From a bacterium (GTDB lineage Bacteria; CLD3; SB21): a DNA stretch of 33,298 nt. The notes beneath the pieces were generated by a model, which saw nothing but the letters and a program-made list of their open reading frames with translations, was not told where the DNA came from and ran no database searches. A program made the position numbers and the translations under genes. Where the stretch lies: contig JABWBZ010000005.1 in NCBI GenBank assembly GCA_013359335.1, positions 1 to 33,298 of the forward strand, given 5' to 3'. Shown here one piece after another: positions 5,023-29,196 of this stretch (positions are counted from its first letter, which is position 1; every line of letters begins with the position of its first letter).

Positions 5023-5050
5023 CGGTTTTCCTATGCTAAGACTGGTATTG

Positions 5051-5098
5051 TTATTCGCGTTTCAATGCTTCCACAGGGTTCGTCGCGCCTTTGTAACT
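5051..5098 (-). pseudogene. C-terminal remnant of a permease gene
   Basis: Minus-strand in-frame peptide (V)SYKGATNPVEALKRE* matches the array's C-terminal signature (..SYxAIKAATANPVDALKYE*); no upstream permease sequence remains, and the esterase gene abuts it. Confidence 0.6.
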
Positions 5099-5943: not shown

Positions 5944-6061
5944 TTGTACCCTTTTAACGATTTTTTAGGCGGCGATTTATTTTTTTTTGTTTAGATAAAA
6001 CTTGATTTTTTGCCGATTAGCGCTTGGTGCTCGAAACACGGGCGCATCAGTACACCGTAGG

Positions 6062-8431: not shown

Positions 8432-8465
8432 AAGGGCCTCTGATCTTTCAATTATTAGTTTTTTG

Positions 8466-8761: not shown

Positions 8762-8782
8762 GTTTGGTATTTCACGTTGTTT

Positions 8783-11176
8783 TTATTCGTATTTCAACGC
8801 GTCCACCGGTTTCGCCGACGCGGCTTTCAGCGCACGATGGCTGACCGTGACTAATGTCAGAATAAGCATTGCGCTTAATGCAATCACAAAGGGTTCAACG
8901 CCAATGTTGATGCGGTATGCAAATCCTTCAAGCCAACCCGAGAGTATCCAGTATGCCATCGGAATCGCGAGTAAGGTTGACAAAACGGCCATGGCCGTAA
9001 ATTCTTTGACAAACATCATGAGAATGGATCCCGTTGAAGCGCCGAGAACCTTGCGGACACCGATCTCTTTCGTACGTTTTTCAGCGACGGCGGCTACGAG
9101 CCCGAATAAACCCAGACATCCGATGCCAATAGACAAAACGGTAAAGATCGTCGTAATTTTGGACAACTGGCTTTCAAAACGGTACACCTGATCGAGGCGG
9201 TGATCGAGAAAGGAATAATCCATCGATTTTTCCTGATCCATGCTGTTCCATATATCTTCGATCGCCGCAATAGTTTCCTGAGCATGACCGGCTTTCAATC
9301 GGACCGTTATGTACGGCATGGCGAAATTGAACAAACCGATCACCATCGGTTCGATCGGCTGATGCAGGCTCGCAAAATGAAAATCTTTGACGACGCCGAC
9401 TATCGGACCGCTCACCGGGCCGCGATCACCGCTGGCAATAATCCGCCCGATCGGATTGTCCAGTTTGTATGCACGCACAGCCGACTCATTGACGATATAC
9501 GCGCCGCTGGAATCAGAAATAAATTCCTGAGAAAAATCACGGCCCTCGACGAGTTCCAATCCGTAAGTTTTGAGATAATCATAACCAACAAATATAAACT
9601 GTACCGGATGGCCTTGATCGTCGGCTATCGGCCCGAAAAACATCGAACGAATCCGGTATCCTTCGCCGGCAATCCATGAATGGCGCGTCACGGAAGCAAC
9701 GCCGGGCAAGCGCTCAGTTTGATACTTGAACCGTTCGTAATTCTGATTTAGCGCTACGTTGCTGCCTAAGGCGCGAATCAGGACATTCTGTTCTTTTTCA
9801 AATCCGAGATTCGTCGATTGGACAAATTTAACCTGCTGCTGAATCACCCACACCGCGCTGATCAGGCCGGCCGTCACGGTCAATTGTGAAACCACCAAAA
9901 CTTGACGAAGATTGAATACGGGGCGAAATGCTTTCACTCGCAAATTGCGTACGGGCGAAAAACTGGATAAAACCATCGCCGGATAGAAACCGGCTCCGAG
10001 TCCGACCATGACGATCAGGAATAAACCAAATACCGCCAGCGCGGGATCGGAATATTGCAGCGCCAATCCAAGATTCGTTGATTGGTTGAGAACCACTACA
10101 AGAAGTTCTGAAAGTCCCAGCGCGATCAAAAAAGCGAACGCCGTTTGCGCGACCGATTCCGTCAGAAACTGAAGTATCAATTGCCGCCGTTCTGCGCCCA
10201 TGACTTTGCGGACACCGACTTCTTTGCTGCGACGTTCCGACTGGGCCGTTGCAAGATTCACATAATTGATTCCGGCAACGACCAGCACCAACAGACCAAT
10301 AATAGAAAAAGTATAAATGTAAAATGCATTGCCGTTAGGCCGGACTTCACTGTCGGTCTGGGAATAAAGATGAATATCTTTAACCGATTGCAGCTCAAAA
10401 TTCGACCCCTTTCGGGTTTCAGGGAAATGTTTTTGAACAATCGTTGCAAGCTGCTTATGCACGTCACCGGCTGCGGCCGGATCTTTGATGCGAAAATACG
10501 TCCAGAACCCGTAATTAAACCAACTGGTCATGAAATCCGCATTGACAACATATTTTCTGAAATCTTCAAACGAAGCGAGCGCCTGAAAAGTAAAGTGGGA
10601 ATTCTCAGGATAATCGTATGTCACGCCGGTGATTTTATAATCGACGTAAATGGTATTGATCCGAACGCGAACCGTTTTTCCGAGTGCGGACACATTCCCG
10701 AAAAGGCGGTGTGCCGTATTTTGAGTCACGATCAGCGATTGCGGTTCTTTGAGGGCAATCGCCGGATCACCCTCGGTAAGACGAATCGATAATAAATCCA
10801 GCATCTCCGGTTCACTAAAAATAAAATTCGGCTCGCCGATAATATTATCACCGGCCCGCAAAACCGCGTCTTGTCCGAAGCGGTACATACGCCCGATTTT
10901 TTCGATGGACGGAAATTCATGTTTCATTATATCAGCCACGCCATAAGATACCGCCGCGGTCGGCTGAGGAACGCCGGTCGTATTGCGTTGAAGAATAACA
11001 CGATACAACCGATCGCTCTGATCTTGAAATCGGTCGTAATTCCATTCCCGCCGTACGTAAAGCGCAATGACAATAAAACAAGCCAGGCCGGCGCCCAATC
11101 CGAAAATATTCAACAGCGCATAAGCTTTTTGTTTGACAATCGTACGTAAAGCTATTTTAAGATAGTTTTGAAACAT
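8783..11176 (-). CDS. ABC transporter permease, MacB_PCD/FtsX type
   Basis: 797 aa; 'RRSKEVGVRKVMGAERRQLILQFLTES', 'KRTKEIGVRKVLGASTGSIL'; C-term KPVDALKYE. Confidence 0.93.
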   Translation of the reverse strand: MFQNYLKIALRTIVKQKAYALLNIFGLGAGLACFIVIALYVRREWNYDRFQDQSDRLYRVILQRNTTGVPQPTAAVSYGVADIMKHEFPSIEKIGRMYRFGQDAVLRAGDNIIGEPNFIFSEPEMLDLLSIRLTEGDPAIALKEPQSLIVTQNTAHRLFGNVSALGKTVRVRINTIYVDYKITGVTYDYPENSHFTFQALASFEDFRKYVVNADFMTSWFNYGFWTYFRIKDPAAAGDVHKQLATIVQKHFPETRKGSNFELQSVKDIHLYSQTDSEVRPNGNAFYIYTFSIIGLLVLVVAGINYVNLATAQSERRSKEVGVRKVMGAERRQLILQFLTESVAQTAFAFLIALGLSELLVVVLNQSTNLGLALQYSDPALAVFGLFLIVMVGLGAGFYPAMVLSSFSPVRNLRVKAFRPVFNLRQVLVVSQLTVTAGLISAVWVIQQQVKFVQSTNLGFEKEQNVLIRALGSNVALNQNYERFKYQTERLPGVASVTRHSWIAGEGYRIRSMFFGPIADDQGHPVQFIFVGYDYLKTYGLELVEGRDFSQEFISDSSGAYIVNESAVRAYKLDNPIGRIIASGDRGPVSGPIVGVVKDFHFASLHQPIEPMVIGLFNFAMPYITVRLKAGHAQETIAAIEDIWNSMDQEKSMDYSFLDHRLDQVYRFESQLSKITTIFTVLSIGIGCLGLFGLVAAVAEKRTKEIGVRKVLGASTGSILMMFVKEFTAMAVLSTLLAIPMAYWILSGWLEGFAYRINIGVEPFVIALSAMLILTLVTVSHRALKAASAKPVDALKYE

Positions 11177-11198
11177 TTAATTTAAATCTCCCGCGTTA

Positions 11199-12230
11199 TC
11201 ATTCTGTCAGCACATCAACGATCGTTTCATTTTTCATTCCGGCGTCTTTCATTTTGCGTACTTTCGACGCGCTGATTCCGTGAATGCCCATCTGGACGAT
11301 TTCATCCGTCGTAAATCCGAACGCTTTCATTTCACTCACAAAATTAGCTCTAAGACCATGAATGCCGAATTGAACGATGTCATCAACTGAAAAACCTTTG
11401 TCGGTCATGTCACGAACAAAACTCGTACGAAGCCCGTGAATGCCAAATTGTACGGCTTCATCGACAGAATAATTCAGCGCCTTCATGTCTTTGATAAATT
11501 CCGGCCGCACGCCATGAATTCCGATTTGGACAATTTCTTCAGAATCGAAGCCGAGTTCTTTCGCTTCTCGAATATAGCCGGGCTTCAAGCCGTGAATGCC
11601 ATATTGAATCGTTTCCTCGAGGTTATCCGCCAAGCCCTCCATGTCTTTGATAAACGACGGCCTGATGCCGTGAATCCCGAGTTGAACGATGGCATCCACA
11701 TCAAGGCCTTCATATTTGGCGTTTTCAATAAAATCTTTTTTAATTCCGTGAATGCCGAATTGCACGACTTCGGAAAGGCGATACCCGAGCGGCGCAAGCC
11801 GTTCAACGTAATCCGTTTCAACGTCGCACATTGCCAAATCGAAAATTTCGCTGTCTTTGACATTTTTGTAACCCCACGAATTGAGTTTTCCCACAAATGA
11901 TTCATCCGGTACGAAAACGTATGTGCCTGAAGCTTTATTTTTTTGGCTTTCGCCGGCAAAATAAATAATGCCTTGTTCGAACGGCATCGTGAATGTGATT
12001 TCTCCGCCGTCGGACTTAACCTTCGAACGGTCCAGCCCTTTGAATCGGTTGTAAGATATTCCCTGAAATGACGTTTGAGACCCTTTTTGATCGGGCCGTT
12101 TCATGGTCAATGAAAGTTCGTTATGACTGAAAACAGCTTCCCAGGTTCCTTCGAACCCATTATCGGCTGCATAACCATGAACAGCGGCCGCGATCAAAAG
12201 AGTAAGCAGGGAGAAAAGTATTTTTTTCAT
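11199..12230 (-). CDS. Secreted repeat protein with about eight 26-aa 'QFGIHGx(3-4)FIxxM' repeats
   Basis: 343 aa; signal peptide MKKILFSLLTLLIAAAVHGYA; beta-type N-domain (FEGTWEAVF...ASGTYVFVPDESFVGKLNSWGY); seven GIHG repeats at 26-aa spacing plus one degenerate copy (FDLAMCDVETDYVERLAPLGYRLSEV). Confidence 0.9.
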   Translation of the reverse strand: MKKILFSLLTLLIAAAVHGYAADNGFEGTWEAVFSHNELSLTMKRPDQKGSQTSFQGISYNRFKGLDRSKVKSDGGEITFTMPFEQGIIYFAGESQKNKASGTYVFVPDESFVGKLNSWGYKNVKDSEIFDLAMCDVETDYVERLAPLGYRLSEVVQFGIHGIKKDFIENAKYEGLDVDAIVQLGIHGIRPSFIKDMEGLADNLEETIQYGIHGLKPGYIREAKELGFDSEEIVQIGIHGVRPEFIKDMKALNYSVDEAVQFGIHGLRTSFVRDMTDKGFSVDDIVQFGIHGLRANFVSEMKAFGFTTDEIVQMGIHGISASKVRKMKDAGMKNETIVDVLTE

Positions 12231-12266
12231 TTGATTTATCTTTCAATATTATTCGCACCAGAGTTC

Positions 12267-12313
12267 ACAGAGAACGCCGAGAAAAACTTATTTAAAACCT
12301 CTGCGCCCTCTGT
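12267..12313. repeat. Intergenic imperfect inverted repeat (ACAGAGAACGCCGAG / CTCTGCGCCCTCTGT)
   Basis: Arms 12267-12281 and 12299-12313 pair at 12/15 positions. Confidence 0.6.
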
Positions 12314-12333
12314 ATTCTCCGGCGTGAGTTTCT

Positions 12334-14751
12334 TTATTCATATTTCAATGCATCGACCGGGTTCGCCGTCGCGGCGCGAATGGCGCGATAGCCTACCGTC
12401 AATGCGGCAATTGCCAGCGTAAACGTGATGGACGTGATAAAAACGCCCGGGCCGATTGAAATACGGTATGCAAAATCCTGCAGCCAGCCGTTCATCACGT
12501 AATACGCGATCGGCGCAGCGAATACAAACGCAATGACGACCAATTGAACGAATTCTTTACCAAACATTATCAGAATGTCCGAAACGCCGGCGCCGAGCAC
12601 CTTCCGTACGCCGATTTCTTTCGTTCTCTGTGTCGCGATGAATGATATCAATCCAAACAATCCCATCGATCCGATGAAAATCGCAATGCCTGAAAAAATG
12701 CGGAAAAGATTTGAAGCTTTTTCTTCTTGTTTGTAAAAATCCCGGATCGTCTCGTCGATAAAGTGATATTCAAAAACATATTCGGGGTACACGTTATTCC
12801 ACGCTTTTTCAATTTGAGCGATAACGTCATGACTTGAATTCATGGTGATTTTGAAACTGGCTTCGTAATAAGTTTCGATGCGCGACGTGATCAGGCACGG
12901 GGACATACTTTCATGCAGGGAATTCATGTTAAAATCTTTGACAACGCCTACGATTGGAATGTCGGCTCCAGCCCAGAAATTGATGATTTTACCAATGGCG
13001 TCCTGAGGCGTGGCTATCCCGAGTTTCCGCACCATCGCTTCATTGACGACAAATTCCTTCACGGTATCGCTGGGGGACAAATTGCGTCCGGCCAGTAAAG
13101 TAAGATTATAGGTCGGAATAAAATGGTCGTCGGCCGTCTTGATGTCGGCGTTATGCTTTTGAATTTCCTTCCCATCGTTGTACCGGAAATTCGAAGTCCA
13201 GCGGTTGCCCGACGTCGCGCCGGAGTACCCAAAACTAAAATCTTTAATGCCGGGAGCATTGGTCAATTGTGCCCGGAGGCTCTCTAATTTTATTTTTTCA
13301 TTTGTCGGCAATGGCACGGTCACGATCGCTTCTTTGTTAAAGCCCAAATCCATTTGCCGCAGGAACTGCATCTGCATCATCACGACAAACGTTCCGATGA
13401 TGAGCGTCTGCGTGATGGCAAATTGCATAACGACCAATCCTTTGCGTAGAAAAATGCCTCCGCTGTGGTTGGACGTGATTTTTCCTTTCAGAGCGACCGC
13501 CGGCTGAAAGCGCGACAATACAAAAGCCGGATAGAGTCCTGACAAAAATGTTACAAAACCAATAACCGCGAGCAAAAAAACAGGCACCATCGAATCCGTA
13601 AAAGGATGAAAAATTACTTTCAATTCCAGCGCACCGGTAAGCTTCGAAAAAAGTAATTCCGTCAACACCACCGACGCAATGGCTGCTAGGGACGTAATGA
13701 TGAACGTTTCGCCGAGCAATTGTCCGATTAATTGAGTGCGTTGAGCGCCCAAAACTTTCCGTACGCCGACTTCACGCGAACGCGTGACCGCTTGCGCCGT
13801 GGCAAGATTGATGAAATTAATGCATGCAGTAACGATCAGGAATATACCGATGATAGCGAGGGCCCACAGTGAACTCACGCTCGTCGTGCGATCGGAGAAA
13901 TTACCGTAACGCGTATCGTAATGAATGGTTGACAATGGCTGCAAGTGGTAAACACGCACCTCGGCGGGATTATCATTTTTAAAATACTTGCTGACAAATT
14001 CAGGAAAACGGCCTTCCAATTCCGACGGGCTACCGTTTTCATTAAGTAAAACAAACGTGTTAACGTTACTGCTGGTGTTATTCCAACTCGTGATATCAAA
14101 TCCGCTCCCGGTTTTACCGATACTGCGTAACGTCGCGTAAGAAACCAGAATTTTAAACGGAAAATCCGAGTTGGTCGGGAAATTCTTCATCACGCCGGTA
14201 ACTTTAAGATCACGCACATTGTCAAGCCGGACGACGCGCCCGATCGGATCTTCGCCGGGAAAATATTTAGTAACCATTTCTTCCGTGAGAACTACGGTGT
14301 TTGGTTCTGACAAACTGGCGCTTGGCGAACCATTCACCCATTCGAAATCGAACATTTCAAAAAATTCAGGTTCGATGTAAACAAGGCCATCGTTTTCCTG
14401 AAATTTTTTTGGCGTTCCTTTGGCGTCTGTAATGGTAATTAGGCCTGAACGCGTATATTCGCAAACGGTGACTTTTTCGATATCGGGAAAATCTGTTCGC
14501 AACGCCGGAGCCAGCGGCGATTGAGTACCGAAGTCATACAACATGCCGTCCGGGTGAGTACGATCGGTATTGACGCGGTACAAGCGGTTTTTCTTAGAAT
14601 GGAAATCGTCGAACGTCAATTCAAACCGTACGATCAGAAAGATCATGAGTGCACAAGTAATGCCGAGCGACAATCCGAGAACGTTGATCAGCGTATAACT
14701 TTTGTTGCGGCTTAGTTTCCGCAATGCCGTTTTGAAATAATTTTTGATCAT
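12334..14751 (-). CDS. ABC transporter permease, MacB_PCD/FtsX type
   Basis: 805 aa; 'TRSREVGVRKVLGAQRTQLIGQLLGETF', 'QRTKEIGVRKVLGAGVSDIL'; C-term NPVDALKYE. Confidence 0.93.
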   Translation of the reverse strand: MIKNYFKTALRKLSRNKSYTLINVLGLSLGITCALMIFLIVRFELTFDDFHSKKNRLYRVNTDRTHPDGMLYDFGTQSPLAPALRTDFPDIEKVTVCEYTRSGLITITDAKGTPKKFQENDGLVYIEPEFFEMFDFEWVNGSPSASLSEPNTVVLTEEMVTKYFPGEDPIGRVVRLDNVRDLKVTGVMKNFPTNSDFPFKILVSYATLRSIGKTGSGFDITSWNNTSSNVNTFVLLNENGSPSELEGRFPEFVSKYFKNDNPAEVRVYHLQPLSTIHYDTRYGNFSDRTTSVSSLWALAIIGIFLIVTACINFINLATAQAVTRSREVGVRKVLGAQRTQLIGQLLGETFIITSLAAIASVVLTELLFSKLTGALELKVIFHPFTDSMVPVFLLAVIGFVTFLSGLYPAFVLSRFQPAVALKGKITSNHSGGIFLRKGLVVMQFAITQTLIIGTFVVMMQMQFLRQMDLGFNKEAIVTVPLPTNEKIKLESLRAQLTNAPGIKDFSFGYSGATSGNRWTSNFRYNDGKEIQKHNADIKTADDHFIPTYNLTLLAGRNLSPSDTVKEFVVNEAMVRKLGIATPQDAIGKIINFWAGADIPIVGVVKDFNMNSLHESMSPCLITSRIETYYEASFKITMNSSHDVIAQIEKAWNNVYPEYVFEYHFIDETIRDFYKQEEKASNLFRIFSGIAIFIGSMGLFGLISFIATQRTKEIGVRKVLGAGVSDILIMFGKEFVQLVVIAFVFAAPIAYYVMNGWLQDFAYRISIGPGVFITSITFTLAIAALTVGYRAIRAATANPVDALKYE

Positions 14752-14784
14752 GCTTATGGCTTCCTTTTTCGAAACAGAGGCTTT

Positions 14785-17184
14785 TTATTCATATTTTAAT
14801 GCATCCACCGGATTGGCCGAAGCGGCGCGTATAGCGCGGTAACCGACGGTCACGGCGGCGATCACCAGCGCAAAAACCATCGCGCTGACGAATACTCCGG
14901 GACCGATCGTAATGCGGTACGCAAAATCCTGCAACCATCCGCTCATCGTGAAATACGCAATCGGCGCGGCGATGACGAACGCAATCGTGATGAGTTGTGC
15001 AAAATCTTTTCCAAAAATCATCAAAATGTCTCCGATACCGGCGCCAAGAACCTTACGGACGCCGATTTCCTTCGTACGTTGAGCCGCCATGAATGAAACA
15101 AGGCCGAACAGTCCAAGGCATCCAATGAAAATGGCAATCGATGCAAAAATAGTAAACAATCGTGACGTGCGTTGCTCGTCTTCATAAAACTGCTGAATCG
15201 TTTCATCGAGAAAACTGTAATCGTACACAAATTCAGGAAATGCTTTCGACCATGCTGATTCAATTTTACCCAAAAGTTCTTTCGAATTTTCCATGGTAAT
15301 CTTGACGCTCATGATATTGTAACTGCGAACTTGTGGGGACATCACCATCGGCTCGATCGCCGAATGCAATGAAGTCATATTGAAATTTTTTACTACACCG
15401 ACTATAGGCCTTGGATCTTCACCGTACACATACAGAGTTTTACCCACGGCATCCATCGGATTAGTCAGCCCCATTTTGGCAACGGCCGCTTCATTGATCA
15501 CCAGTTCATGAATCGTGTCGCTCATGGTATAATTACGTCCGGCAAGAAGTTTAAGGCCGTAAGTGGAGATATAATTTTCATCCGCGATTCGCATGTCGGA
15601 GATCATTTCGACAGGACCGGAAGGACTGTCTTTATAAACCATTAACGATGTCCAATGGCTTGTTGACGCAGCAGCTTCAAATCCGAACGTTACATTCTGT
15701 ATGCCCGGCTGCCTCATCAATTCTGTTCGCAATGATTCCATACGTGATTTATCCTTTACCGGAACATCCGTGATGACGATAGCGTCCTTGACAAATCCCA
15801 TATCGGTTTTGCGAAATAACTCCATTTGTTCGAACACCACAATCGTACCGATTATCAGCGCTTGGGCAATCATAAATTGAAAAACGACCAGGCCCTTACG
15901 GATCCATAAACCTCCGGTCGATGACGAAGATTGCCCGCCTTTCAAAACCGTCGCCGGTTGATATCCGGCCAAAATAATAGCCGGGTAAAATCCCGACCCG
16001 ATACTAATAAGCGCAATCAGGCATGCGAGAAAGAGCCATATATGCCCATGGCCGATGAGACTGAATTGTAAATGAAAATCAAAACTGCTGTTCAGCAGTG
16101 GAACAGCTAATTCCGTCAACCCCATGGCGATAACGCCGGACAAAATCGTAATCAAAAATGTTTCGCCAAAAAATTGAACAAGAAGTTGGGTGCGAAATGC
16201 TCCCAGCACTTTTCGGACGCCGACTTCCTTGGCCCGCGTAATGGCTTGAGCGGTAGCGAGATTGACGAAATTAATGCAGGCCGTTGCAACGAGAAATAAT
16301 CCGATAATCGACAAAGCCCACATGCTGGAACGGGTCGTGGTGTGAGTATAACTGTCGGTCTCAGGATTAAAATGGATATCACTTAAAGGTTGAACCTCAT
16401 ACCCGCGTTCATGGCGGCGGCGCTCGTCGAGAAAAGGTTTGGCCATGTCCGTCACACGCGCATTGAAATCCATTGCGTCCCAGTTTTCCGGCGCAAGCAC
16501 ATAGGTATTGATGCTACTCATGGTCGCGCCCCACTGCTCCAAGTTGCGGTTACGCCCGGCCGCGCGTTGCGTGCTATAGGAAATGAAAACGGTAAACGGA
16601 AAATTTGTATTCAAGCGCGGATCGGCCATAAGCCCAACGACGGTAAGATTGTCAAGATTATTTACATTGAACGTCTTCCCAAGTGGATTTTCATTCCCGA
16701 AAAATTTCTTTGCCATACTCTGACTTAGAACAACTGAATAAGGCTCCGCCAAAGACGACGGATGGCCTTCAATCCATTGTGCGTCAAAAATTTCAAAAAA
16801 TTCCGGTTCGACATAAGCAACTCCTTCACTTTCAGCAAATTTCTTGGGCGCGTTTGATCCATCAGGAATTGTAAACACACCGCTGGATACATAATAAACG
16901 GTAGTGGTTTTCACATCACTGAAATGTGAACGAATGGCCGCTCCAAGGGGAAATTGCGAAGCGCCGTTGCGGCCAACTTCTCCGTCACGATACCAAACCG
17001 TATTCACCCGATAAATACGATCTTTGTTTTTATGAAAAGCATCGTAACTCAGTTCGTGCTGAATGATCAGATAAATACACAAGGCACATGTCATTCCGAT
17101 TGAAAGGCCGGCCATGTTAATCAGCGTATAATTTTTATTGCGGCTTAATTTGCGCCACGCAGTTTTAAAATAATTTTTAATCAT
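14785..17184 (-). CDS. ABC transporter permease, MacB_PCD/FtsX type (close paralogue of 12334-14751)
   Basis: 799 aa; starts MIKNYFKTAWRKLSRNKNYTLINMAGLSIGMTCAL (compare MIKNYFKTALRKLSRNKSYTLINVLGLSLGITCAL); C-term NPVDALKYE. Confidence 0.93.
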   Translation of the reverse strand: MIKNYFKTAWRKLSRNKNYTLINMAGLSIGMTCALCIYLIIQHELSYDAFHKNKDRIYRVNTVWYRDGEVGRNGASQFPLGAAIRSHFSDVKTTTVYYVSSGVFTIPDGSNAPKKFAESEGVAYVEPEFFEIFDAQWIEGHPSSLAEPYSVVLSQSMAKKFFGNENPLGKTFNVNNLDNLTVVGLMADPRLNTNFPFTVFISYSTQRAAGRNRNLEQWGATMSSINTYVLAPENWDAMDFNARVTDMAKPFLDERRRHERGYEVQPLSDIHFNPETDSYTHTTTRSSMWALSIIGLFLVATACINFVNLATAQAITRAKEVGVRKVLGAFRTQLLVQFFGETFLITILSGVIAMGLTELAVPLLNSSFDFHLQFSLIGHGHIWLFLACLIALISIGSGFYPAIILAGYQPATVLKGGQSSSSTGGLWIRKGLVVFQFMIAQALIIGTIVVFEQMELFRKTDMGFVKDAIVITDVPVKDKSRMESLRTELMRQPGIQNVTFGFEAAASTSHWTSLMVYKDSPSGPVEMISDMRIADENYISTYGLKLLAGRNYTMSDTIHELVINEAAVAKMGLTNPMDAVGKTLYVYGEDPRPIVGVVKNFNMTSLHSAIEPMVMSPQVRSYNIMSVKITMENSKELLGKIESAWSKAFPEFVYDYSFLDETIQQFYEDEQRTSRLFTIFASIAIFIGCLGLFGLVSFMAAQRTKEIGVRKVLGAGIGDILMIFGKDFAQLITIAFVIAAPIAYFTMSGWLQDFAYRITIGPGVFVSAMVFALVIAAVTVGYRAIRAASANPVDALKYE

Positions 17185-17277
17185 GAATTTGAAATTCTTT
17201 TTAATACTTCATCACCCAGACGCACAGGAAAATTTAATTTAAAAACAAATGCCGTACACTACTCTGGCGTGAAAGTT

Positions 17278-19647
17278 TTATTCATATCGTAAAGCATTAA
17301 CCGGATTTTCGGTGGCTATTTTATACACGCGCGATCCGACGGTCAGAACGGCCAACAATAGCATGGCCACTACGGCGCCCATAAACGGAACCATAGTAAT
17401 CGGTGCGTGCGAATTGAAAATGCTGTTCAATAACCCGTTGAGCGCGATGTAAGCGATGGGGAAAATCAACGCTGCAGCGATTATGATTAATACGTAAAAT
17501 TCACGGTTGACCAAATTCATAATGTGCGGTGCAGAGGCGCCGAGAACTTTGCGGATACCGATTTCTTTCGTACGGCGCGCGATATTCATGGACACGAGCG
17601 CAAAAAGTCCCATCGCGGCAATGATCATGGTCATCACGGCAACATAGATGAACATGTTTTTAATATTTTCATTTTCGACAAAATCTTCTTCAAACACCTT
17701 ATCCTGAAAACCTAATTCAAACGGCACGTCGGGCGTCAGCTTTTTCCATTCGGCTTTCATGGCAGCGACGACTTCGTCCGCTTTATCCGGCTGCATCTTG
17801 ACCGACATTAAACGGTAGGACGCTTTCGGAATCGCTTTGATCACCATCGGTTCGACCGGGCGCATGAACGTGCGCGTATAAAAATCGCTTACGACGCCGA
17901 TCACGCTGTATTCTTTGCCCTCAATGCGCAGAACCTTTCCGGCGGATTGTTGCCAGCCCAATTGTGAAGCGAGCGTTTGATTGATCATCACGCTTTGCTC
18001 CTCATCAGTTTTCAAAGCCGGATCGAAGCTTCGGCCTTCTTCAATACCGATGCCCAGCGTTTCAATATAGTCCGTGCCGACGCGCATCATATTGGTTTGA
18101 AACGTATTTCCTTCCGTCTCCATCGTCATACCGACGCTTTGACTCCGGCCGGCTTGATGAAGGGATCCTGCAATCCGATCGACTCCCGGCGTACGCAGCA
18201 TCGCAGCTTCAAACCGTTCATATTCCTCGGCGGAATTAAAATTTACCACCGCTACTTGTTCGCCTTTGAAACCCAGATCCATCGATGTGAAATAATCGTT
18301 GTTAATTTTGAAAACGATGGCGGCGACGATGGCAAACAAACAAATGGCAAATTGCAATACAACCAAAACGCGCGTCATAAATTTGTTGCCGGTCACTTGC
18401 TGAAGATCGCAGAAAATTTTAACAGGCTGAAACGTACTCATATACAAGGATGGATATAAACCGGAAATGACTCCGATCGCGGCAACTAAAAGTCCCATAA
18501 AAATCAAAAGCGGGTAATCGGAAAAAATATCGAAGCTAATCCAGTGACCGTCGATCAGAGTATTCATAAACGGCGCAAACGCCGCTTCCGCCAAACCGAG
18601 ACCGATCAGCAGCGCCACAAACGATACGATCAACGATTCGCCTAAAAACTGCAGTAGCAACTGGCGCCGCTGTCCACCCAAAACTTTCCGAACGCCGATT
18701 TCTTTGAAACGGCGCGCCGAGCCGGCGATCATGTTGTTCATAAAATTAAAACACGCCATCAGCATCAGCAGCCCAGCAATGATAGCCAGGGCAATTAGTC
18801 CGTTGGGGTTGGCTCCACGCGAAATATCTCCCCGGGTACGGTTGGAGTTTTTGGCAAGGTCAACCACATTATCGATATAAAAGGATTTGTAAAGCCGGTC
18901 GGGATTGACCGCGTTGTACGTCGCGATGTTATTTTGAATTTTTGATTCGACGGCCTTGGCATTGCTTCCGGGCGACAACTGAATAAAGGTAGCCGCTACG
19001 CTGTAATCCCATCCGTTGGCTTTCGGCGTAATGGCCTCAACCAAGCCGAATCCACACAACAAATCAAAACTAAAGCTGGCATTACGCGGTGCCTTACGAA
19101 TGATGCCTCGGACGACGAGATCGTACTTATGAGTTGGATCGATCCGTACGGTCAGCGTTTTGCCCAGCGCATTTTCTTTACCGAAATATTTGTCCGCTTT
19201 TTCCTCACTCAGAAAAATGGCGCTTGGATCCACTAATGCGTGCGGATCGCCGTCAACGAGCGGAAAAGTAAACATATCAAAAAAACCGGGATCGGCAAAC
19301 CATATCAATTCTTTAAAAACATTATCTCCGTAACGTACGGATGCATCGAAGTTATCGATTCGAACTGAACGTTTGACTTCGGGCAGTTGTTCTTTGAGCG
19401 CCGGTCCCAACGCCGCGGGAGTAAAGCCCCATCGTTCTTCACCGTTGTTTACCGGTTTGACGTGGCCGATCATGTAAATATCGGCGGCATTGGCGTGAAA
19501 TTCATCCTGGCTTATAAACGTGTAAATAAAAACAAAAATAGTCAGACAGACGCCGATGCCCATCGACAGGCCAAGAACGTTAATACCCGTATGCAGACGG
19601 TTGCGCCATAAAATGCGGACAGCCGTGCGGAGATAATTTTTGAACAT
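17278..19647 (-). CDS. ABC transporter permease, MacB_PCD/FtsX type (divergent subtype, resembles 2656-5022)
   Basis: 789 aa; 'ARRFKEIGVRKVLGGQRRQLLLQFLGES', 'RRTKEIGIRKVLGASAPHIM'; C-term NPVNALRYE. Confidence 0.93.
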   Translation of the reverse strand: MFKNYLRTAVRILWRNRLHTGINVLGLSMGIGVCLTIFVFIYTFISQDEFHANAADIYMIGHVKPVNNGEERWGFTPAALGPALKEQLPEVKRSVRIDNFDASVRYGDNVFKELIWFADPGFFDMFTFPLVDGDPHALVDPSAIFLSEEKADKYFGKENALGKTLTVRIDPTHKYDLVVRGIIRKAPRNASFSFDLLCGFGLVEAITPKANGWDYSVAATFIQLSPGSNAKAVESKIQNNIATYNAVNPDRLYKSFYIDNVVDLAKNSNRTRGDISRGANPNGLIALAIIAGLLMLMACFNFMNNMIAGSARRFKEIGVRKVLGGQRRQLLLQFLGESLIVSFVALLIGLGLAEAAFAPFMNTLIDGHWISFDIFSDYPLLIFMGLLVAAIGVISGLYPSLYMSTFQPVKIFCDLQQVTGNKFMTRVLVVLQFAICLFAIVAAIVFKINNDYFTSMDLGFKGEQVAVVNFNSAEEYERFEAAMLRTPGVDRIAGSLHQAGRSQSVGMTMETEGNTFQTNMMRVGTDYIETLGIGIEEGRSFDPALKTDEEQSVMINQTLASQLGWQQSAGKVLRIEGKEYSVIGVVSDFYTRTFMRPVEPMVIKAIPKASYRLMSVKMQPDKADEVVAAMKAEWKKLTPDVPFELGFQDKVFEEDFVENENIKNMFIYVAVMTMIIAAMGLFALVSMNIARRTKEIGIRKVLGASAPHIMNLVNREFYVLIIIAAALIFPIAYIALNGLLNSIFNSHAPITMVPFMGAVVAMLLLAVLTVGSRVYKIATENPVNALRYE

Positions 19648-19660: not shown

Positions 19661-20350
<690 letters not shown>

Positions 20351-20400
20351 GACTGAATTCCTTTATTTGGTTGGTGTATTTTGTATTAGCATAAAAGCTT

Positions 20401-20760
20401 TCAGCTTTCGGCTCTCAGCCTTTGAAGAAAGGCCGTGAGCATTTTTTTGATTTCGACTACGCCGGAAGCTACTTTTTCGTAATCTGGCTTTTTTATGTAA
20501 TGGAGATCACAAGCCAAAAGTAGATGATATTCGAGTTCGCTCGCCGATCCCATTGCAATTTGCAAAAAACGAGCAAAATCGGCATCGGTTCTCCTACCAC
20601 AACCTTCAGCGATATTAGCAGGTATGGAAGATGATGCTCTTCGTATTTGACTTGTTAGACCGAACAATTCATCATTTGGAAAATTTTTTGTCATGGAATA
20701 CAGAATTAATGTTAACTGATGACTTTTTACCCATACATCTAAATTTCGAAAATCTTTCAT
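20401..20760 (-). CDS. Four-helix-bundle protein, S23 / 23S rRNA intervening-sequence-protein family
   Basis: 119 aa; 'MKDFRNLDVWVKSHQLTLILYSMTKNFPNDELFGLTSQIRRASSSIPANIAEGCGRRTDADFARFLQIAMGSASELEYHL' is the characteristic family pattern. Confidence 0.93.
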   Translation of the reverse strand: MKDFRNLDVWVKSHQLTLILYSMTKNFPNDELFGLTSQIRRASSSIPANIAEGCGRRTDADFARFLQIAMGSASELEYHLLLACDLHYIKKPDYEKVASGVVEIKKMLTAFLQRLRAES

Positions 20761-20798
20761 TGTTTTCCTTTACAGCGAATAGCTGAACGCCGACAGCT
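20403..20798. repeat. Inverted repeat pair framing the S23 ORF (AGCTTTCGGCTCTCAGC / GCTGAACGCCGACAGCT)
   Basis: Arm 20403-20419 versus reverse complement of 20782-20798 (AGCTGTCGGCGTTCAGC): 14/17 identical; the S23 stop codon falls at the arm edge. Confidence 0.6.
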
Positions 20799-20803
20799 AT
20801 GAG

Positions 20804-22060
20804 CTATTTCTGTTTCAACATCAACTTATCAATATCCCCATAACTGTCGTACGACGAGGTCACAACCTGTTCGCCCGGAAACAGGCCATCGATGACTTCA
20901 AAAACCTGGGGATTTTGCCGGCCGAGTTTGATCGGACGTTTGATGGCGAAGTCGCCCGAAGGATCGACGACAAAGATCCATTGGCCGCCGGTCTTCTGAT
21001 AAAATCCGCCGCGCGGCACGAGTATCGCTTCGGCGAGATCGCCGAGTTCCAGACGAATCTGCAACGTCTGGCCGCGGCGGATATCTTTCGGCGCTTCGCC
21101 CTGAAATTCCATATCCACTTCAAACCGGCCGTTGCTCACTTCCGGATAAACTTTTTTGATGATAAGAATGTAAGTTTTGCCGGCGAAATCGAATTCGCCC
21201 GTTTGCCCGATCTGAATGCGCGCAATATAATGTTCGTCAATTCCCGCGCGAACTTTGAATCCGTCGAGCACGTCGATCTGGCCCAAACGATCACCGGCGC
21301 GTTTGGATTCGCCAAGCTCGGCGTTACGGGACGTTAATTGCCCGTTGACAGGAGCCCGAATGGTGAGGTTGGCAAGATTTTCTTTGATGACATTCAGATT
21401 AGTTTGCATGTGCTGGATTGACGCCTCGAGCGATTGCATCTGCGTCGCACGCAAAATTGAATCGGAATGCATACTCTCGATCAAAAGATCGCGGCGATTG
21501 ACGGCATATTGATATTCATCGCGCGCTTGCTCGTATTCTTGTTGGGAAGTAAGATTTTGCGAGAGCAAACCTTTTTGAATATCGTAATTCCGTTTCCAGC
21601 GCCCGATCTGATATTCCAGATCGATGAGGTCGCCTTTATTGCGAATCCGGTTTTGTTCGAATGCCAGCCGGGTATTGCGCAAATTATTGATCTGCTCGAA
21701 AAGCTGCGCTTCGCGGAACATCACGTCCATTTGCAGATTCGTATTGGTCAGCTTCAAAAGCTCTTCGCCCTCTTTCACGATCGTACCTTCTTCGACGAAT
21801 AATTTTTCAACGCGTCCGCCTTCCATCGCGTCGAGATAGATCGTCTTGATCGGCAACACATTGCCGGTCACGGGAATAAATTCCTGAAAAGGACCTTTCG
21901 TGACTTTGGCCAGTGTGATTTTTTCAACTTCGACATTCAGTTTGGACGACGTATCACCGAAAAGAAACGTGTAAAAAACAAAAATGAACAAAAGTCCGCC
22001 GCCTGCAAAAATCGCGATCTTTTTCGGAGGCCAATTCTTTTTTTCAATTTTACGATCCAT
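20804..22060 (-). CDS. Periplasmic adaptor subunit (HlyD/MacA/RND-type membrane fusion protein)
   Basis: TM anchor, 'VKEGEELLKLTN' lipoyl half, long coiled coil, 'IRAPVNGQLTSRNAELGESKRAGDRLGQI', beta-barrel. The ORF track starts at 22099; the internal ATG at 22060 (MDRKIEKKNWPPKK) is preferred because a GGAA-type RBS precedes it and a candidate promoter ends near 22100. Confidence 0.92.
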   Translation of the reverse strand: MDRKIEKKNWPPKKIAIFAGGGLLFIFVFYTFLFGDTSSKLNVEVEKITLAKVTKGPFQEFIPVTGNVLPIKTIYLDAMEGGRVEKLFVEEGTIVKEGEELLKLTNTNLQMDVMFREAQLFEQINNLRNTRLAFEQNRIRNKGDLIDLEYQIGRWKRNYDIQKGLLSQNLTSQQEYEQARDEYQYAVNRRDLLIESMHSDSILRATQMQSLEASIQHMQTNLNVIKENLANLTIRAPVNGQLTSRNAELGESKRAGDRLGQIDVLDGFKVRAGIDEHYIARIQIGQTGEFDFAGKTYILIIKKVYPEVSNGRFEVDMEFQGEAPKDIRRGQTLQIRLELGDLAEAILVPRGGFYQKTGGQWIFVVDPSGDFAIKRPIKLGRQNPQVFEVIDGLFPGEQVVTSSYDSYGDIDKLMLKQK

Positions 22061-22112
22061 GTTTTTCCAATTCCATGTTTTGTAATAAGCTAGAAACAAT
22101 TAAGCAACGTGT

Positions 22113-22128
22113 TGCAAAGTCAATTCCC
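22113..22128 (-). promoter_or_regulatory. Candidate sigma-54 (-24/-12) promoter for the adaptor-ATPase-permease operon
   Basis: Minus strand GGGAAT-TGACT-TTGCA: GG (22127-22126), 10 nt, GC (22115-22114), the spacing of consensus TGGCAC-N5-TTGCA. Confidence 0.5.
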
Positions 22129-22186
22129 ATGCCCAAAACGTACGTTTATTTTTTAATGATTTAAGACTACGGAGAAATAATAGAAA

Positions 22187-22202
22187 TGTTCGCTTTCGCA
22201 CG
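22187..22202. promoter_or_regulatory. Candidate enhancer site 1 (degenerate): TGTTCG-CTTT-CGCACG
   Basis: Same layout as site 2; centre-to-centre distance 21 bp. Confidence 0.4.
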
Positions 22203-22207
22203 AAGAG

Positions 22208-22223
22208 TGTCCGTTTTCGGACA
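22208..22223. promoter_or_regulatory. Candidate enhancer site 2: TGTCCG-TTTT-CGGACA
   Basis: Perfect 6-bp inverted arms around 4 nt, about 88 bp upstream of the candidate -24 GG. Confidence 0.55.
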
Positions 22224-22300
22224 GTAGGTTTTTTACTCAAGAGAACGCTGAGAACATGGTGATTATGTTTGGGTCCGTGCTCTCAGGTGTGGATAGGATT

Positions 22301-25300
22301 TTAGGCTAATTTTTCCAATTCAACGATCGTATCATAGTAATTTTTTTCCAATTCTTCGATCATCGAACGGATTTTGGTGAGGTCGTTTTTGCGGCCGCAC
22401 TGATCGATATGTTCGCACAGATCGGCCATGTAACGCGCGCCGATATTGCCGCAAGCCCCTTTGAGGTTGTGTGCAGCCATCGACAAATTCGTGGTATCCT
22501 CGCCGGCCGCATGTTTTTTGATCTGAGCGATCAACGACGGCGCCTGGCGGAGAAACATGGCGATAATGTCCTGGAAAAATGTCGGATCGTCTTCGGTGGC
22601 CAGGCTTTTCAATCCGTCGATCGTGCGGGCGTCGACAATTTTATTCGGGCGTTTGAGTTCGGTATGAACCGGTTCGATTTTCGGTTTGATTGCGTGGCCC
22701 CATTTCGCCAGCGCCGCTGACACTTCTTCCAACCGGGTCGGTTTGCTGATATAATCGTCCATACCCGCTTCGATGCAGCGTTCGCGGTCGCCCTGCATCG
22801 CGTTGGCCGTCATGGCGATAATTTTCGGCCGCATATCGTTCGGCCAGTTTTCGACGATGTGGCGCGTCGCTTCGAGCCCGTCCATTTCCGGCATTTGCAT
22901 GTCCATAAATACGAGGTCGTAATGCTGCCGCTTGAGCGCGTCGACCGCTTCGATGCCGTTGCCAACTACGTCCGCGAGATAACCGATCTGCTTCAAAATC
23001 CGGAGCGCAACTTTTTGGTTGACGACGTTGTCTTCGGCAACGAGAATTCGCAGCGGGCGCAATTCGATGGTTTTGTCGTCGTCATGAATTGGTTGTTCGA
23101 GAATTTCAGGAATGGCTTTCGCTCCGGCGAGCGTATTCATCAGCATGTCGAAAAATTGCGACTGACGGATCGGCTTGGAAACATACGCCTGAAAAATTTC
23201 CTTCGCTTCTTTGACGCTGCGTTCGTTTTTGCCCAATGACGTCAGCAAAATCATCGGCATTTGTTCTTCCGTGCGCAGCTCGCGAATCGCTTTGCCCAGC
23301 ATGAGCCCGTCCATTTCCGGCATTTGCATGTCGATGATGGCGAGATCAAACGATTCGCGGTTTTTCAGCCAACCGACCGCTTCCTGCCCGGACGCCGTGG
23401 CTTTAGCTGTAAGCCCCCAATGCTGGCATTGCGTCGACAAAATCCGGCGATTGGTCTCATTGTCATCGACGATGAGAACCGATTTACCGTCGAGTTCCGT
23501 CACGCGCCCGGCTTTGCGGTCATCGACAGGTTTTTGCGCAACCGCCGTCTTGAGCGTAAATGAAAAGACCGAACCTTTGCCTTCAATACTTTCCGCCCAC
23601 ATGCGCCCGCCCATCAGTTCGGACAATCGCTTACAAATTGCCAGTCCCAACCCCGTACCGCCGTATTGCCGCGTTGTGGACGAATCGACTTGCGAAAACG
23701 ATTTGAAAAGACGATCCATTTTATTTTCAGGAATGCCGATGCCCGTATCTTTCAGGGAGAATTGCAGTTCCTGCGCGGCGCCGGATTGTTTGATCTTTTT
23801 AACGTTGAGAAAAATCTCGCCATTAGGTGTAAACTTCACGGCATTGCTGACGAGATTAGCCAAAATCTGCCGCACGCGCGTCACGTCGCCGACGACGAAC
23901 GTCGGCACATCCGGTTCGATGAAATAAAGCAATTCCAGCTGCTTTTCGGCAACCATCGACGCAAAAAGATCGAACGTGTCTTCGATGCAACTCCGCAGAT
24001 CGAACGGCTGTTCTTCCAATTCCATCTTGCCCGATTCGATTTTCGAAAAATCCAGGATATCGTTGATGATCGTCAGAAGCGTTTCACCGCTGACGCGGAT
24101 CGTTTCGACAAAACTGCGCTGCTCGGCGGACAATTCCGTTTCCATGAGCAATCCAGTCATGCCGATGACGCCGTTCATCGGCGTACGGATTTCGTGGCTC
24201 ATGTTAGCCAAAAACTCCGATTTCAACCGAGCCGCTGCCAGCGCGGCTTCGCGGGCGGAGATCAATTCCCGGTCGAGATGTTTCCGTTCGGTAATATCGC
24301 GTACGATCGCCAGCACTTCATCCACGCCGCTGACGACAATCCGCGCTTCGTGATCCCGTATGCGGCCGTCCACTTCGATCTGGTACTCGAAAACCTGCAT
24401 CTCACTCGTTTCGAGCGCTTTCTCCACATATTGCATCGTTTTTTCAGCGGCGCTGAGAATTTGCCCGCTCGTAACCACGACGCCGAAATCTTTGGGAACG
24501 CGGAAGTCGAAAATAATTCCGTCGCGCCGCAAGCGGTACATCAGATCGGGAATGGCATTGAGCAATGCCTGCGTCTTCGCTTCGCTCTTGCGTAAAGCTT
24601 CTTCCGTCTGTTTACGTTCGTTGACTTCTTTTTGTAAAGCTTTTGTGCGCTCGTCGATGCGTTTTTCGAGATTGCGGTTGATCTCTTCAAGCTGTTTGTA
24701 AGCCACTTCGAGATTGTCGACCATCTCGTTGAATGCGCTGGCGAGTTGGGCGACTTCGTCATTATAATACGTCGGCGCGCGGTGGGAAAGATCGCCGTTG
24801 GAAACCTTCACAACGGTAGCAACCATTTGCCCGAGATGGCTTGTCACGGCCGTGCTGATCGTGAAAACGGCAATCATCCCGATCACGAAAATCAACATAC
24901 TGACGGTGGTGATCGTCGTACGGCTCTGATCGATTTCCGCACGGATGCTTTCCAGGGAGATGCCGACAAATACGCGCCCGATTTTTTTTCCGTCTTTGTA
25001 AACGACGGTCATACCTTGGTACAATTTACCGTCGCCGGAAATAATATTATGATGCGTGGGATGGTCGAAATTATACTGATTCGCCAATCCGCGATTGAAA
25101 ATACCCAGCGCTTTACCGGTATTATTGATCACGATCATGTAAACGAGATCTTCATTCTGGCGGGCAACCTGGATGGTCGAATAAATAACACTCGTGTCTG
25201 CCGTTTGAATCGCACCCGAAAGGCTGAACGCCACCATTTCGCCGATGCTCTGCGCTTTCGCTTTGATGGAACGAATCGCCTGATCTTCGAGGCGGGTCGG

Positions 25301-25402
25301 GAAGAAAACGAAAATAAAAACCGAAATCACACCAATGATCAAGGTGACCAAAAGCGAGAGTTTGGTGCGAATCGTGGACAAGCCTTTTCGGGAAAACGCC
25401 AT
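22301..25402 (-). CDS. Hybrid sensor histidine kinase (periplasmic sensor, HAMP, PAS, HisKA, HATPase_c, REC, REC, Hpt)
   Basis: '[23 protein letters not shown]', '[39 protein letters not shown]', two REC domains ([26 protein letters not shown]), C-terminal Hpt '[14 protein letters not shown]'. ORF opens at 25486; Met29 (25402) is a likelier start. Confidence 0.94.
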
Positions 25403-25516
25403 ACCGTTAAATGTTAATAGAACAGGGTCATTAGATTTGCGCATCAAGATAAACAAAAACCGTCCACTTAAACAACAAATTTTCACAGGTATCTCAGCAC
25501 GACCGAGTTAATTCCG

Positions 25517-26053: not shown

Positions 26054-26449
26054 ATTGATTCATTAACTCATTACGATTTTTGTTGTGTTTAAAGCTGAAG
26101 AATTAAAAAAGCGAACTAAATTATTTGCGATCCGTATTGTACGGTTATTTCGAACGTTACCCAAAACGGAAGAAGGCCGCGTTATCGGTAAACAGCTTTT
26201 GCGCTCCGGGACATCGGTTGCGGCCAATTATCGCGCCGTTTGCCGTGCCCGATCCAAAGCTGAATTTATTGCAAAAATGGGAATTGTCGTTGAAGAAATT
26301 GACAAAACGGTTTTTTGGCTTGAAATGCTGATTGATACAGAAATTATAAATGAATCTTTGCTCAAAGATCTTCTGAAAGAGGCCAACGAATTACTGGCAA
26401 TTTTCGCAGCATCCCAAAGAACATCCAAACAATGAGTAAATGAATCAAT
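26054..26449. repeat. Inverted repeat pair framing the second S23 ORF (ATTGATTCATTAACTCATT / AATGAGTAAATGAATCAAT)
   Basis: Arm 26054-26072 versus reverse complement of 26431-26449 (ATTGATTCATTTACTCATT): 18/19 identical; the S23 stop TGA (26433-26435) is inside the right arm. Confidence 0.8.
26085..26435 (+). CDS. Four-helix-bundle protein, S23/IVP-like family (second subtype)
   Basis: 116 aa: 'GRVIGKQLLRSGTSVAANYRAVCRARSKAEFIAKMGIVVEEIDKTVFWLEML' matches the second common subgroup of this family; GTG start. Confidence 0.9.
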   Translation: MFKAEELKKRTKLFAIRIVRLFRTLPKTEEGRVIGKQLLRSGTSVAANYRAVCRARSKAEFIAKMGIVVEEIDKTVFWLEMLIDTEIINESLLKDLLKEANELLAIFAASQRTSKQ

Positions 26450-26456
26450 AAATTCC

Positions 26457-27833
26457 ATGCTTCCAAAGTCTACCAAAATTCTGGTCATCGACGACGATGA
26501 AGACGTCCTTTTAGCGGCACGTTTGTTTCTCAAACAGCATGTCAGCGTTGTCCAGACCGAAAAAAATCCCGAACAAATTCCCGTTTTGCTTAAAAACGAA
26601 AATTACGACGTCATTTTGCTCGATATGAATTTCACGCGCGACGTGAGCAGCGGTTATGAAGGATTTTTCTGGCTGAATAAAATTTTAGAATTGGATCCGC
26701 GCGCCGTGGTGATTTTGATTACCGCGTACGGCGACGTGGAAATGGCGGTGCGCGCAATCAAAGAAGGCGCCATGGATTTTGTTTTGAAGCCTTGGCAAAA
26801 TGAAAAATTGCTTGCTACGTTATCAGCGGCCATGAACCTGCGTTTGTCAAGGCTTGAAGCGGAAAATTTACGCTCGCGACAGGAATTTCTCTCGGCGGAA
26901 CTCGACCAGCCTTTCCATGACATCATCGGCCATTCTCCTGCAATGCTTCAGGTTTTTTCTACGATTCAAAAAGTTGCTAAAACCGACGCCAATGTGCTGA
27001 TCCTCGGAGAAAACGGAACTGGCAAAGAATTGATCGCGCGCGCGTTGCATCGCCAGTCATTACGCCAAAAAGAAGTATTTATCACCGTAGACATGGGCGC
27101 CATCAGCGAGACGTTATTCGAAAGCGAACTTTTCGGACACGTGAAAGGCGCGTTTACCGACGCGAAAGAAGACCGCGCGGGAAGATTTGAAATCGCTACC
27201 GGCGGAACGTTGTTTCTGGACGAAATCGGTAATCTGTCGCTGCCGATGCAGGCAAAGCTTTTAACCGTTTTGCAAAACAGGGAAGTAACGCGCATCGGTT
27301 CGAATAAGCCGCTGCCGTTCGATATCCGGCTGATCTGCGCGACGAATTGGCCGATTCATGCCATGGTCGTCGAAAAAAAATTCCGCCAGGATTTGTTGTA
27401 CCGCATCAACACCGTTGAAATTGCTTTGCCGCCGCTGCGCGAACGCGCCGACGATTTGCCCGCGCTGGCCGAACATTTCATCGCATCGTATTGCAAAAAA
27501 TATCAGAAACCGGCCAAAAGCCTGCATGTAGCGGCATTGAAAAAACTCGAGAAATATTCCTGGCCCGGGAATGTGCGTGAACTGCAGCATACGATCGAAC
27601 GCGCCGTCATCATGAGCGAATCGCCGCTCCTTCAGCCGGAAGATTTCCTGCTCACCGCCTCGCAAGCCAAAGCCGACGGACTGATGATCGACGATTACAA
27701 TCTGGAAGAAATTGAAAAAGCGCTGATCCGTAAAGCGTTGAGCAAACACGGCGGGAACGTGAGTCACGCGGCGAAAGATCTGGGACTGACCCGGACGTCG
27801 CTATATCGCAGGTTGGAAAAATATGGTTTATAA
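26457..27833 (+). CDS. NtrC-family sigma-54-type response regulator (REC, AAA+, Fis HTH)
   Basis: 458 aa; REC 'KILVIDDDEDV...VILLDMNF', Walker A GENGTGKE, GAFTDA loop, GGTLFLDEIGNL, C-terminal Fis HTH 'GGNVSHAAKDLGLTRTSLYRRLEKYGL'. Confidence 0.96.
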   Translation: MLPKSTKILVIDDDEDVLLAARLFLKQHVSVVQTEKNPEQIPVLLKNENYDVILLDMNFTRDVSSGYEGFFWLNKILELDPRAVVILITAYGDVEMAVRAIKEGAMDFVLKPWQNEKLLATLSAAMNLRLSRLEAENLRSRQEFLSAELDQPFHDIIGHSPAMLQVFSTIQKVAKTDANVLILGENGTGKELIARALHRQSLRQKEVFITVDMGAISETLFESELFGHVKGAFTDAKEDRAGRFEIATGGTLFLDEIGNLSLPMQAKLLTVLQNREVTRIGSNKPLPFDIRLICATNWPIHAMVVEKKFRQDLLYRINTVEIALPPLRERADDLPALAEHFIASYCKKYQKPAKSLHVAALKKLEKYSWPGNVRELQHTIERAVIMSESPLLQPEDFLLTASQAKADGLMIDDYNLEEIEKALIRKALSKHGGNVSHAAKDLGLTRTSLYRRLEKYGL

Positions 27834-29196
27834 CCGCTTTCGCATCCTCTGCACGATTCGGGTTATCGTTCTGGCGCTGACGACGCACGTGTTTTTTTAT
27901 CTGCTGTCGCAAACTTCGCTCTATGTGACAACCGCTCTGGTCGGTATTACGATTATTTATCAAATTTACGCGCTGATTATTTTCGTTGAAAAAACCAACC
28001 GCGATTTGACGCGATTTCTCGAATCCATCCGCCACGAAGATTTTTCCCAAACGTTTTCCGGCTCCGGCTGGGGCTCGTCGTTCGACGAATTAAAATCCGC
28101 GTTCTCACAAATCATTACGGATTTCAGAAAAGCGCGTACGGAACGCGAGGAAAGTTTCCGTTATCTGCAAATCGTCGTACAGCATGTGCCGGTCGGGCTC
28201 ATTGCGTTTACGCCTGATGGTGATATCGAACTGATCAATAACGCCGCGCGCCGTTTGTTCAAAGTCGCCGTGTCCCCGGATCAGCCTTCGCTGCGGAATA
28301 TCAAAGCGCTGGAAGCCGTGAACAAATCGCTCGTGAATGTTTTTTTTCAACTGAAACCCGGTCAACGTACGCTGGTCAAATTCGACGACGGCACGGAGTG
28401 GGTTCAGCTCGTTATTTCGGCAACGGATTTTAAATTACGCGAACAGAAGTTTACGCTCGTGTCGCTGCAGAATATTCAAAGCGAATTGGAAGAAAAGGAA
28501 ATGGAAGCTTGGCAAAACCTGATTCGCGTACTGACGCATGAAATCATGAATTCCGTCACGCCGATTTCGTCCCTCGCGTCCACGGTCAACGACCTCGTTT
28601 CGCGTTCGTTCAATCGCGTGAATACCGGAGAAAAGGTCGATCAGGATTCAATGCAGGATATTCACGGCGCGCTTGGCACGATCCAAAAACGCAGCGAAGG
28701 ATTGATCCATTTCGTCGAGGCGTACCGCAATTTGACCAAAATACCCGCGCCGAATTTTCGCATTTTTGCCGTTAATGAATTATTCCACCGCGCCGAGCAA
28801 TTGCTTCGCCCGAAACTGACGGAAAATAAAATTCAATTTCAATCGATCATCGAACCGCCGACGCTGGAACTCACCGCCGATCTGGAATTGGTCGAACAAG
28901 TGTTGATCAATCTGCTGATCAATGCGATTCAGGCCACACAGAAACAACTCAAACGGCAAATTAAACTTACCGCGCGCCTCGATGAACGCGGACACGTACT
29001 GATTCAAGTAGCCGACAACGGTCCGGGCATTATTGACGAAGCGATGGATAAAATTTTTATTCCGTTTTTTACTACGAAAGAGGACGGCTCGGGCATTGGT
29101 TTGGCGCTTTCACGGCAAGTGATGCGCCTTCACCGCGGCACGATCGGCGTGCAGTCACGCCCGAATATCGAAACAGTTTTTACGCTGAGATTTTAA
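27823..29196 (+). CDS. Membrane sensor histidine kinase (PAS, HisKA-like, HATPase_c)
   Basis: 457 aa; two N-terminal TM segments, H-box 'LTHEIMNSVTPISSL', 'NLLINAIQAT', 'VADNGPGI', 'TKEDGSGIGLALS'; start overlaps the regulator stop by 11 nt. Confidence 0.95.
   Translation: MVYNRFRILCTIRVIVLALTTHVFFYLLSQTSLYVTTALVGITIIYQIYALIIFVEKTNRDLTRFLESIRHEDFSQTFSGSGWGSSFDELKSAFSQIITDFRKARTEREESFRYLQIVVQHVPVGLIAFTPDGDIELINNAARRLFKVAVSPDQPSLRNIKALEAVNKSLVNVFFQLKPGQRTLVKFDDGTEWVQLVISATDFKLREQKFTLVSLQNIQSELEEKEMEAWQNLIRVLTHEIMNSVTPISSLASTVNDLVSRSFNRVNTGEKVDQDSMQDIHGALGTIQKRSEGLIHFVEAYRNLTKIPAPNFRIFAVNELFHRAEQLLRPKLTENKIQFQSIIEPPTLELTADLELVEQVLINLLINAIQATQKQLKRQIKLTARLDERGHVLIQVADNGPGIIDEAMDKIFIPFFTTKEDGSGIGLALSRQVMRLHRGTIGVQSRPNIETVFTLRF

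Follow-up and report, generated by a model that had tools for sequence, protein, structure and literature searches.

A predicted sigma-54-dependent promoter with tandem palindromic sites at a MacB/FtsX-type exporter operon and its probable counterparts in many phyla

The exporter operon and its presumed regulatory genes

The window, by which we mean the whole stretch of 33,298 nucleotides that was analyzed, carries an exporter operon on its minus strand and a two-component system of the NtrC class on its plus strand, with the following genes:

204-2618, 2656-5022, 6062-8431, 8783-11176, 12334-14751 and 14785-17184, minus: six further permeases
17278-19647, minus: first of seven MacB/FtsX-type, ADOP-like permeases (Pfam MacB_PCD and FtsX; NCBIfam ADOP below cut-off; phmmer)
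19661-20350, minus: ABC ATPase, DarD/MacB/LolD-like (Pfam ABC_tran; NCBIfam DarD below cut-off)
20804-22060, minus: periplasmic adaptor, HlyD/DarC-like, first gene of the operon (Pfam HlyD_3; NCBIfam DarC below cut-off)
22301-25486, minus: hybrid histidine kinase with Hpt domain, lying between exporter promoter and regulator in this genus
26457-27833, plus: NtrC-family response regulator, presumed activator (receiver PF00072, sigma-54 AAA+ PF00158, Fis-type HTH PF02954)
27823-29196, plus: partner histidine kinase (HATPase_c; H-box HEIMNS)

The seven permeases are paralogous and are preceded by just one ATPase and one adaptor, and their array (204-19647, minus) is interrupted by an esterase gene and by the gene for a 343-aa protein with no confident family. 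By eye, a small ORF between adaptor and ATPase (20351-20803, minus) is four-helix-bundle-like and resembles 23S rRNA intervening-sequence proteins, and a second such ORF lies just before the regulator gene (26084-26440, plus). The original prediction took ATG 22060 as the adaptor start, and this start is right because the adaptors of four relatives begin at the equivalent ATG (MDRK/MDRQIEKK).

Here the hybrid kinase gene separates the regulator gene from the exporter operon, which is 4 kb distant, and the two are neither adjacent nor divergent; alongside regulator and kinase, beyond the hybrid kinase gene, is a plus-strand gene for a CoA-binding protein. The rpoN gene that a sigma-54 promoter leads one to expect is in the genome (PF04552, E 5.9e-59), where 16 strong sigma-54 activator domains are also encoded, alongside weak AAA matches. 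In the regulator the sigma-54 contact loop reads GAFTDA (residue 235) instead of GAFTGA; 86 of 88 regulator orthologues carry GAFTDA, GSFTDA or GAYTDA, while paralogues mostly have GAFTGA. GAFTDA is among the loop variants listed as able to activate (PMC4641369).

Tandem palindromes and the register of the predicted promoter

The intergenic region upstream of the adaptor contains the following candidate elements:

22208-22223, minus, TGTCCGAAAACGGACA: UAS1, distal candidate enhancer palindrome, TGTCCG-TTTT-CGGACA, centre at about -108 from the predicted start
22187-22202, minus, CGTGCGAAAGCGAACA: UAS2, proximal candidate enhancer palindrome, TGTTCG-CTTT-CGCACG, degenerate, conserved at 20-22 bp spacing
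22135-22119, minus, TGGGCATGGGAATTGAC: best-supported -24/-12 element, highest matrix score in the region and conserved in the family
22129-22113, minus, TGGGAATTGACTTTGCA: overlapping -24/-12 element of the original prediction, less likely

Both palindromes are present as the original prediction had described them, with a centre-to-centre distance of 21 bp. Counts of single palindromes are uninformative because near-palindromes with at most 3 mismatches number 15 in the window against 13.8 expected. In a genome-wide scan, which the original prediction had proposed, the exact TGTCCGN4CGGACA copy is unique and one-mismatch copies number 12 elsewhere. When TGTNCGN4CGNACA was sought twice, 21 bp apart and with at most 3 mismatches of 20, the tandem pair occurred once in the 3.5 Mb genome, at this promoter. 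Footprinting, likewise proposed, gave the same picture in close relatives with orthologous adaptors (G001, 97% identical; G003, 82%; G004 and G006, 75%), all of which retain both palindromes, 20-21 bp apart, and the -24/-12 element. The hybrid kinase gene is missing from the locus in G004 and G006 and the palindromes are still there; therefore, the sites belong to the adaptor promoter. The two palindromes are thus phased, conserved and above chance, as is expected of an enhancer pair.

The 21-bp tandem site was found once each in the window's genome (G000), G001, G004 and G006, in front of the adaptor; in G003 the promoter pair has a spacing of 20 bp, and the single 21-bp match is weak and lies elsewhere. 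No tandem site was found in G005, G007 and G008, genomes without a close regulator orthologue and without the adaptor, and in the fragmented genome G002 the regulator is present on a contig that ends close by and the adaptor was not found. The predicted regulon of the window's family is a single operon. A distant match in G035, with a regulator of 46% identity and the exporter about 7 kb off, has a good -24/-12 element, TTGGCACG-GGGC-TCGC, but its pair is degenerate (13/20) and it was not counted.

A sigma-54 promoter facing the exporter operon is likewise indicated: rpoN accompanies a TGGCA-like -24 that is conserved in orthologous promoters. This part of the original prediction is supported, but its exact -24/-12 register is not: both conservation and a distance seen elsewhere favour a register 6 bp further upstream. 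The original element, TGGGAATTGACTTTGCA, is present as described (GG-N10-GC) and has a weak -24. The upstream element, TGGGCATGGGAATTGAC, reads GGGCATG-GGAA-TTGA, a GG-N10-GA in which A takes the place of the -12 C; several orthologous promoters show the same substitution. With a matrix trained without the window's own family, the scores are 11.4 for the upstream element and 6.4 for the original one, against 10.2-18.0 for the training promoters. Among the 41 promoters of the class, whose selection put little weight on the -12 C, this base is variable (C 11, G 12, T 11, A 7). In the upstream element, the -24 GG is 53 bp away from where the UAS pair ends. In a family alignment made with MAFFT without reference to promoters, GGCA...ATTG is invariant and in register in 5/5 genomes.

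It is conceivable, although unlikely, that the same system works through the original element (start about 22102) or uses both registers. That element has a perfect TTGCA at -12, is retained in the same-genus genome G001 and outscores its neighbour under textbook consensus weights, which value the -12 C. However, at 59 bp its distance from the pair is out of phase by about half a turn and occurs in 0/41 training promoters; its score falls below their range; and its TTGC is retained in the genus only, G003 having neither GG nor GC and G004 lacking the GC. The working -24/-12 is thus most likely the upstream element, from which a transcription start at about 22108 is deduced, 48 bases before the adaptor ATG.

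The original prediction had also proposed a short palindrome, GCAACGTGTTGC, as an extra operator. It is present at 22104-22115, yet it is absent from the orthologue even within the same genus in the family alignment; we rejected it as an operator, and it is probably due to chance.

Conservation of the arrangement across phyla

Scanning a genome collection with the regulator alignment gave 80 loci at 52-73% identity, distributed over Bacteroidota, Latescibacterota, Zixibacteria, Acidobacteria, Balneola, Salinibacter, Marinimicrobia, Aminicenantes, Kordiimonas and others. In most orthologous loci regulator and kinase are divergent from the exporter operon, and in nearly all orthologous loci the kinase gene comes after the regulator gene. 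In the tree of regulators, the window's protein falls together with those of G001, G004 and G006; the tree intermingles several phyla, and many of its forks are weak. In 85 regulator-orthologue loci, 42 pairs scored at least 17/20, against a mean of 0.25 (maximum 3) for 40 permuted palindromes, the control on which we rely because a pattern read backwards differs in CpG content. The best pair score at 32 paralogous activator loci was only 14. A minority of orthologous loci have no clear pair beside the exporter (e.g., L111, L113, L115, and L129). The recognition helix TRxSLYRRL/M/I is strongly retained across the orthologues, in keeping with one binding site across phyla. In several Bacteroidales loci (L064 7614, L066 7620, L069 7602, L077 2483, and L080 431) a second tandem pair lies downstream of the ATPase gene and possibly serves a second promoter for the next gene.

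The distance between pair and promoter appears to follow a rule. In 42 pair-to-exporter regions, which leave out the window's family, TGGCAY occurs on the exporter-facing strand in 37, on the other strand in none, and in 2.75 of 42 in shuffles. The distance from the pair end to the -24 GG is 52-55, 64-67 or 75-79 bp in 38/41 promoters, in steps of about 11 bp; here we rely on the discrete clusters because a Rayleigh test on the distances, which ignores kinship, does not single out a period of 11 bp. These pair and promoter counts are not independent events, since many of the sequences are related. As a check on data outside the training set, sites were sought in 12 genomes by the pair alone. 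Among 20 such sites from Spirosoma, Kordiimonas, and Ekhidna, the best sigma-54 match lay at 53-56, 64-65 or 73 bp in 18; with the classes held strictly to the training ranges, 13/20 agreed against about 1.7 expected by position alone. The arrangement is also directional: a sigma-54 match of at least 10 was found on the exporter side of 37/37 pairs, most of them from the training set, and on the other side of 3/37. At L178, L132, L133 (Pontibacter), and L118, the pair is flanked on either side, at 54-64 bp, by sigma-54-like elements, which suggests that the regulator may activate its own gene as well.

Spirosoma telluris (L161-L175) shows a large expansion of the same predicted regulon. Its 17 tandem sites lie mostly before separate permease genes, and five precede genes for small proteins that are exported or belong to the envelope; at three of the five the -24/-12 is very strong. 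The non-permease targets in Spirosoma are three small exported DUF3244-like proteins, a DUF4097 protein and a PA14-OmpA protein; a target in Ekhidna is an acyltransferase. Together, the target genes suggest a response to envelope or antimicrobial stress.

The original prediction had pointed to the nearby NtrC-type regulator as a possible activator, and this assignment is the most likely one, since the pair tracks the regulator orthologues; by co-occurrence and linkage, the palindrome pair is most likely the site of the regulator encoded at 26457-27833. With 16 strong sigma-54 activator domains in the genome, the palindromes could in principle serve a different regulator, be it another activator or a repressor, and be followed by an ordinary promoter of the sigma-70 type. 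The scan for such promoters, whose coverage leaves out organism-specific types and thereby leaves this reading some room, found no sigma-70-like promoter in the region. We consider it quite improbable, as the pair follows the orthologues of this regulator and not its paralogues, and the -24/-12 stands at fixed distances from the pair. Finally, we rejected, as hardly credible, a terminator hairpin of the upstream hybrid kinase gene: the perfect palindrome lies 78 bases past that gene's stop codon and is flagged by a scanner as terminator-like on the plus strand, but the gene is on the minus strand and the T-run on the plus strand, the second palindrome is left unexplained, and the sites persist in the two relatives that lack the gene at this locus.

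Proposed mechanism and comparison with known systems

With considerable confidence, we interpret the region as a sigma-54-dependent promoter of the adaptor-ATPase-permease operon that is controlled by the neighbouring two-component system. Counting against it are the TTGA at -12, the preference of textbook weights for the other register, the GAFTDA loop, the minority of orthologous loci with no clear pair and the position of the regulator gene in the window. In this model, the kinase (27823-29196) would phosphorylate the NtrC-family regulator. Dimers of the regulator would occupy the two TGTnCG-N4-CGnACA sites, which lie 20-22 bp apart on one face of the DNA, at about -108 and -87, and would form an AAA+ ring. 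By looping or bending the DNA over a short distance, the ring may then contact the closed RNA polymerase-sigma-54 complex at 22135-22119, so that the promoter would open and transcription start from about 22108. This mechanism is established for the NtrC class, and it is by analogy that binding, phosphorylation, ring assembly and the start site are proposed here.

The genomes compared make it very probable that the arrangement truly serves as an on-switch for such export pumps and is in wide use. More broadly, we think it rather likely that these loci form a previously undescribed sigma-54 regulon that spans phyla and obeys a fixed grammar, in which tandem TGTnCG-N4-CGnACA sites (20-22 bp) stand about 54, 65 or 76 bp from the -24/-12 on the same face, and GAFTDA regulators are dedicated to MacB/FtsX exporters and, in the expanded Spirosoma set, to twelve or more genes for permeases and envelope proteins. 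In open-licence papers, we found no description of the regulator, its site or the spacing rule. Outside Proteobacteria there are a great many NtrC-family activators, and the sites of few of them are known; for one orthologous family, the present analysis predicts a binding site, proposes how the promoter is spaced from it and assigns a class of targets, in many phyla. Cultured genera are included (Spirosoma, Pontibacter, Kordiimonas, and Algoriphagus), which makes the regulation of MacB/FtsX-type exporters directly testable, and these operons possibly serve envelope or antimicrobial defence. The steps of about 11 bp between enhancer and promoter suggest that sigma-54 activation at close range keeps its DNA-face phasing over long evolutionary times.

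The DarBCD darobactin exporter and MacAB-type exporters have an adaptor, an ATPase and a permease of the same general types. In contrast, the window has seven permeases with one ATPase and one adaptor, and its Dar matches all lie below the NCBIfam equivalog cut-offs (DarC 200/450 bits, DarD 283/375, and DarB 93/700).

Activators of the NtrC, ZraR and NorR types act from paired palindromic sites upstream of a -24/-12 promoter. Activation of sigma-54 promoters via upstream activating sites is classical (review PMC7175178). The available part of a 2025 study predicts sigma-54 promoters for COG0577 FtsX-like antimicrobial peptide permeases in Bacteroidia, Opitutia and Gammaproteobacteria, which it terms first evidence (PMC12316311); that part ties no activator, enhancer site or spacing rule to these permeases, whereas all three are proposed here. 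In the sigma-54 regulome of Desulfovibrio vulgaris, several activator motifs have TGT/ACA half sites 9, 11 or 12 bp apart (PMC4641369); the present site is TGT-N10-ACA in tandem, and its target class, exporters, differs. The group 1 NtrC-family activators (NtrC, ZraR, and NorR types) share with the present regulator the receiver-AAA+-Fis HTH layout and the paired palindromes. The proposed system differs from them in its site, TGTnCG-N4-CGnACA, in its GAFTDA/GSFTDA/GAYTDA loop, in the position of the pair about 53-79 bp from the -24 in steps of about 11 bp, and in a -12 C that is not conserved.
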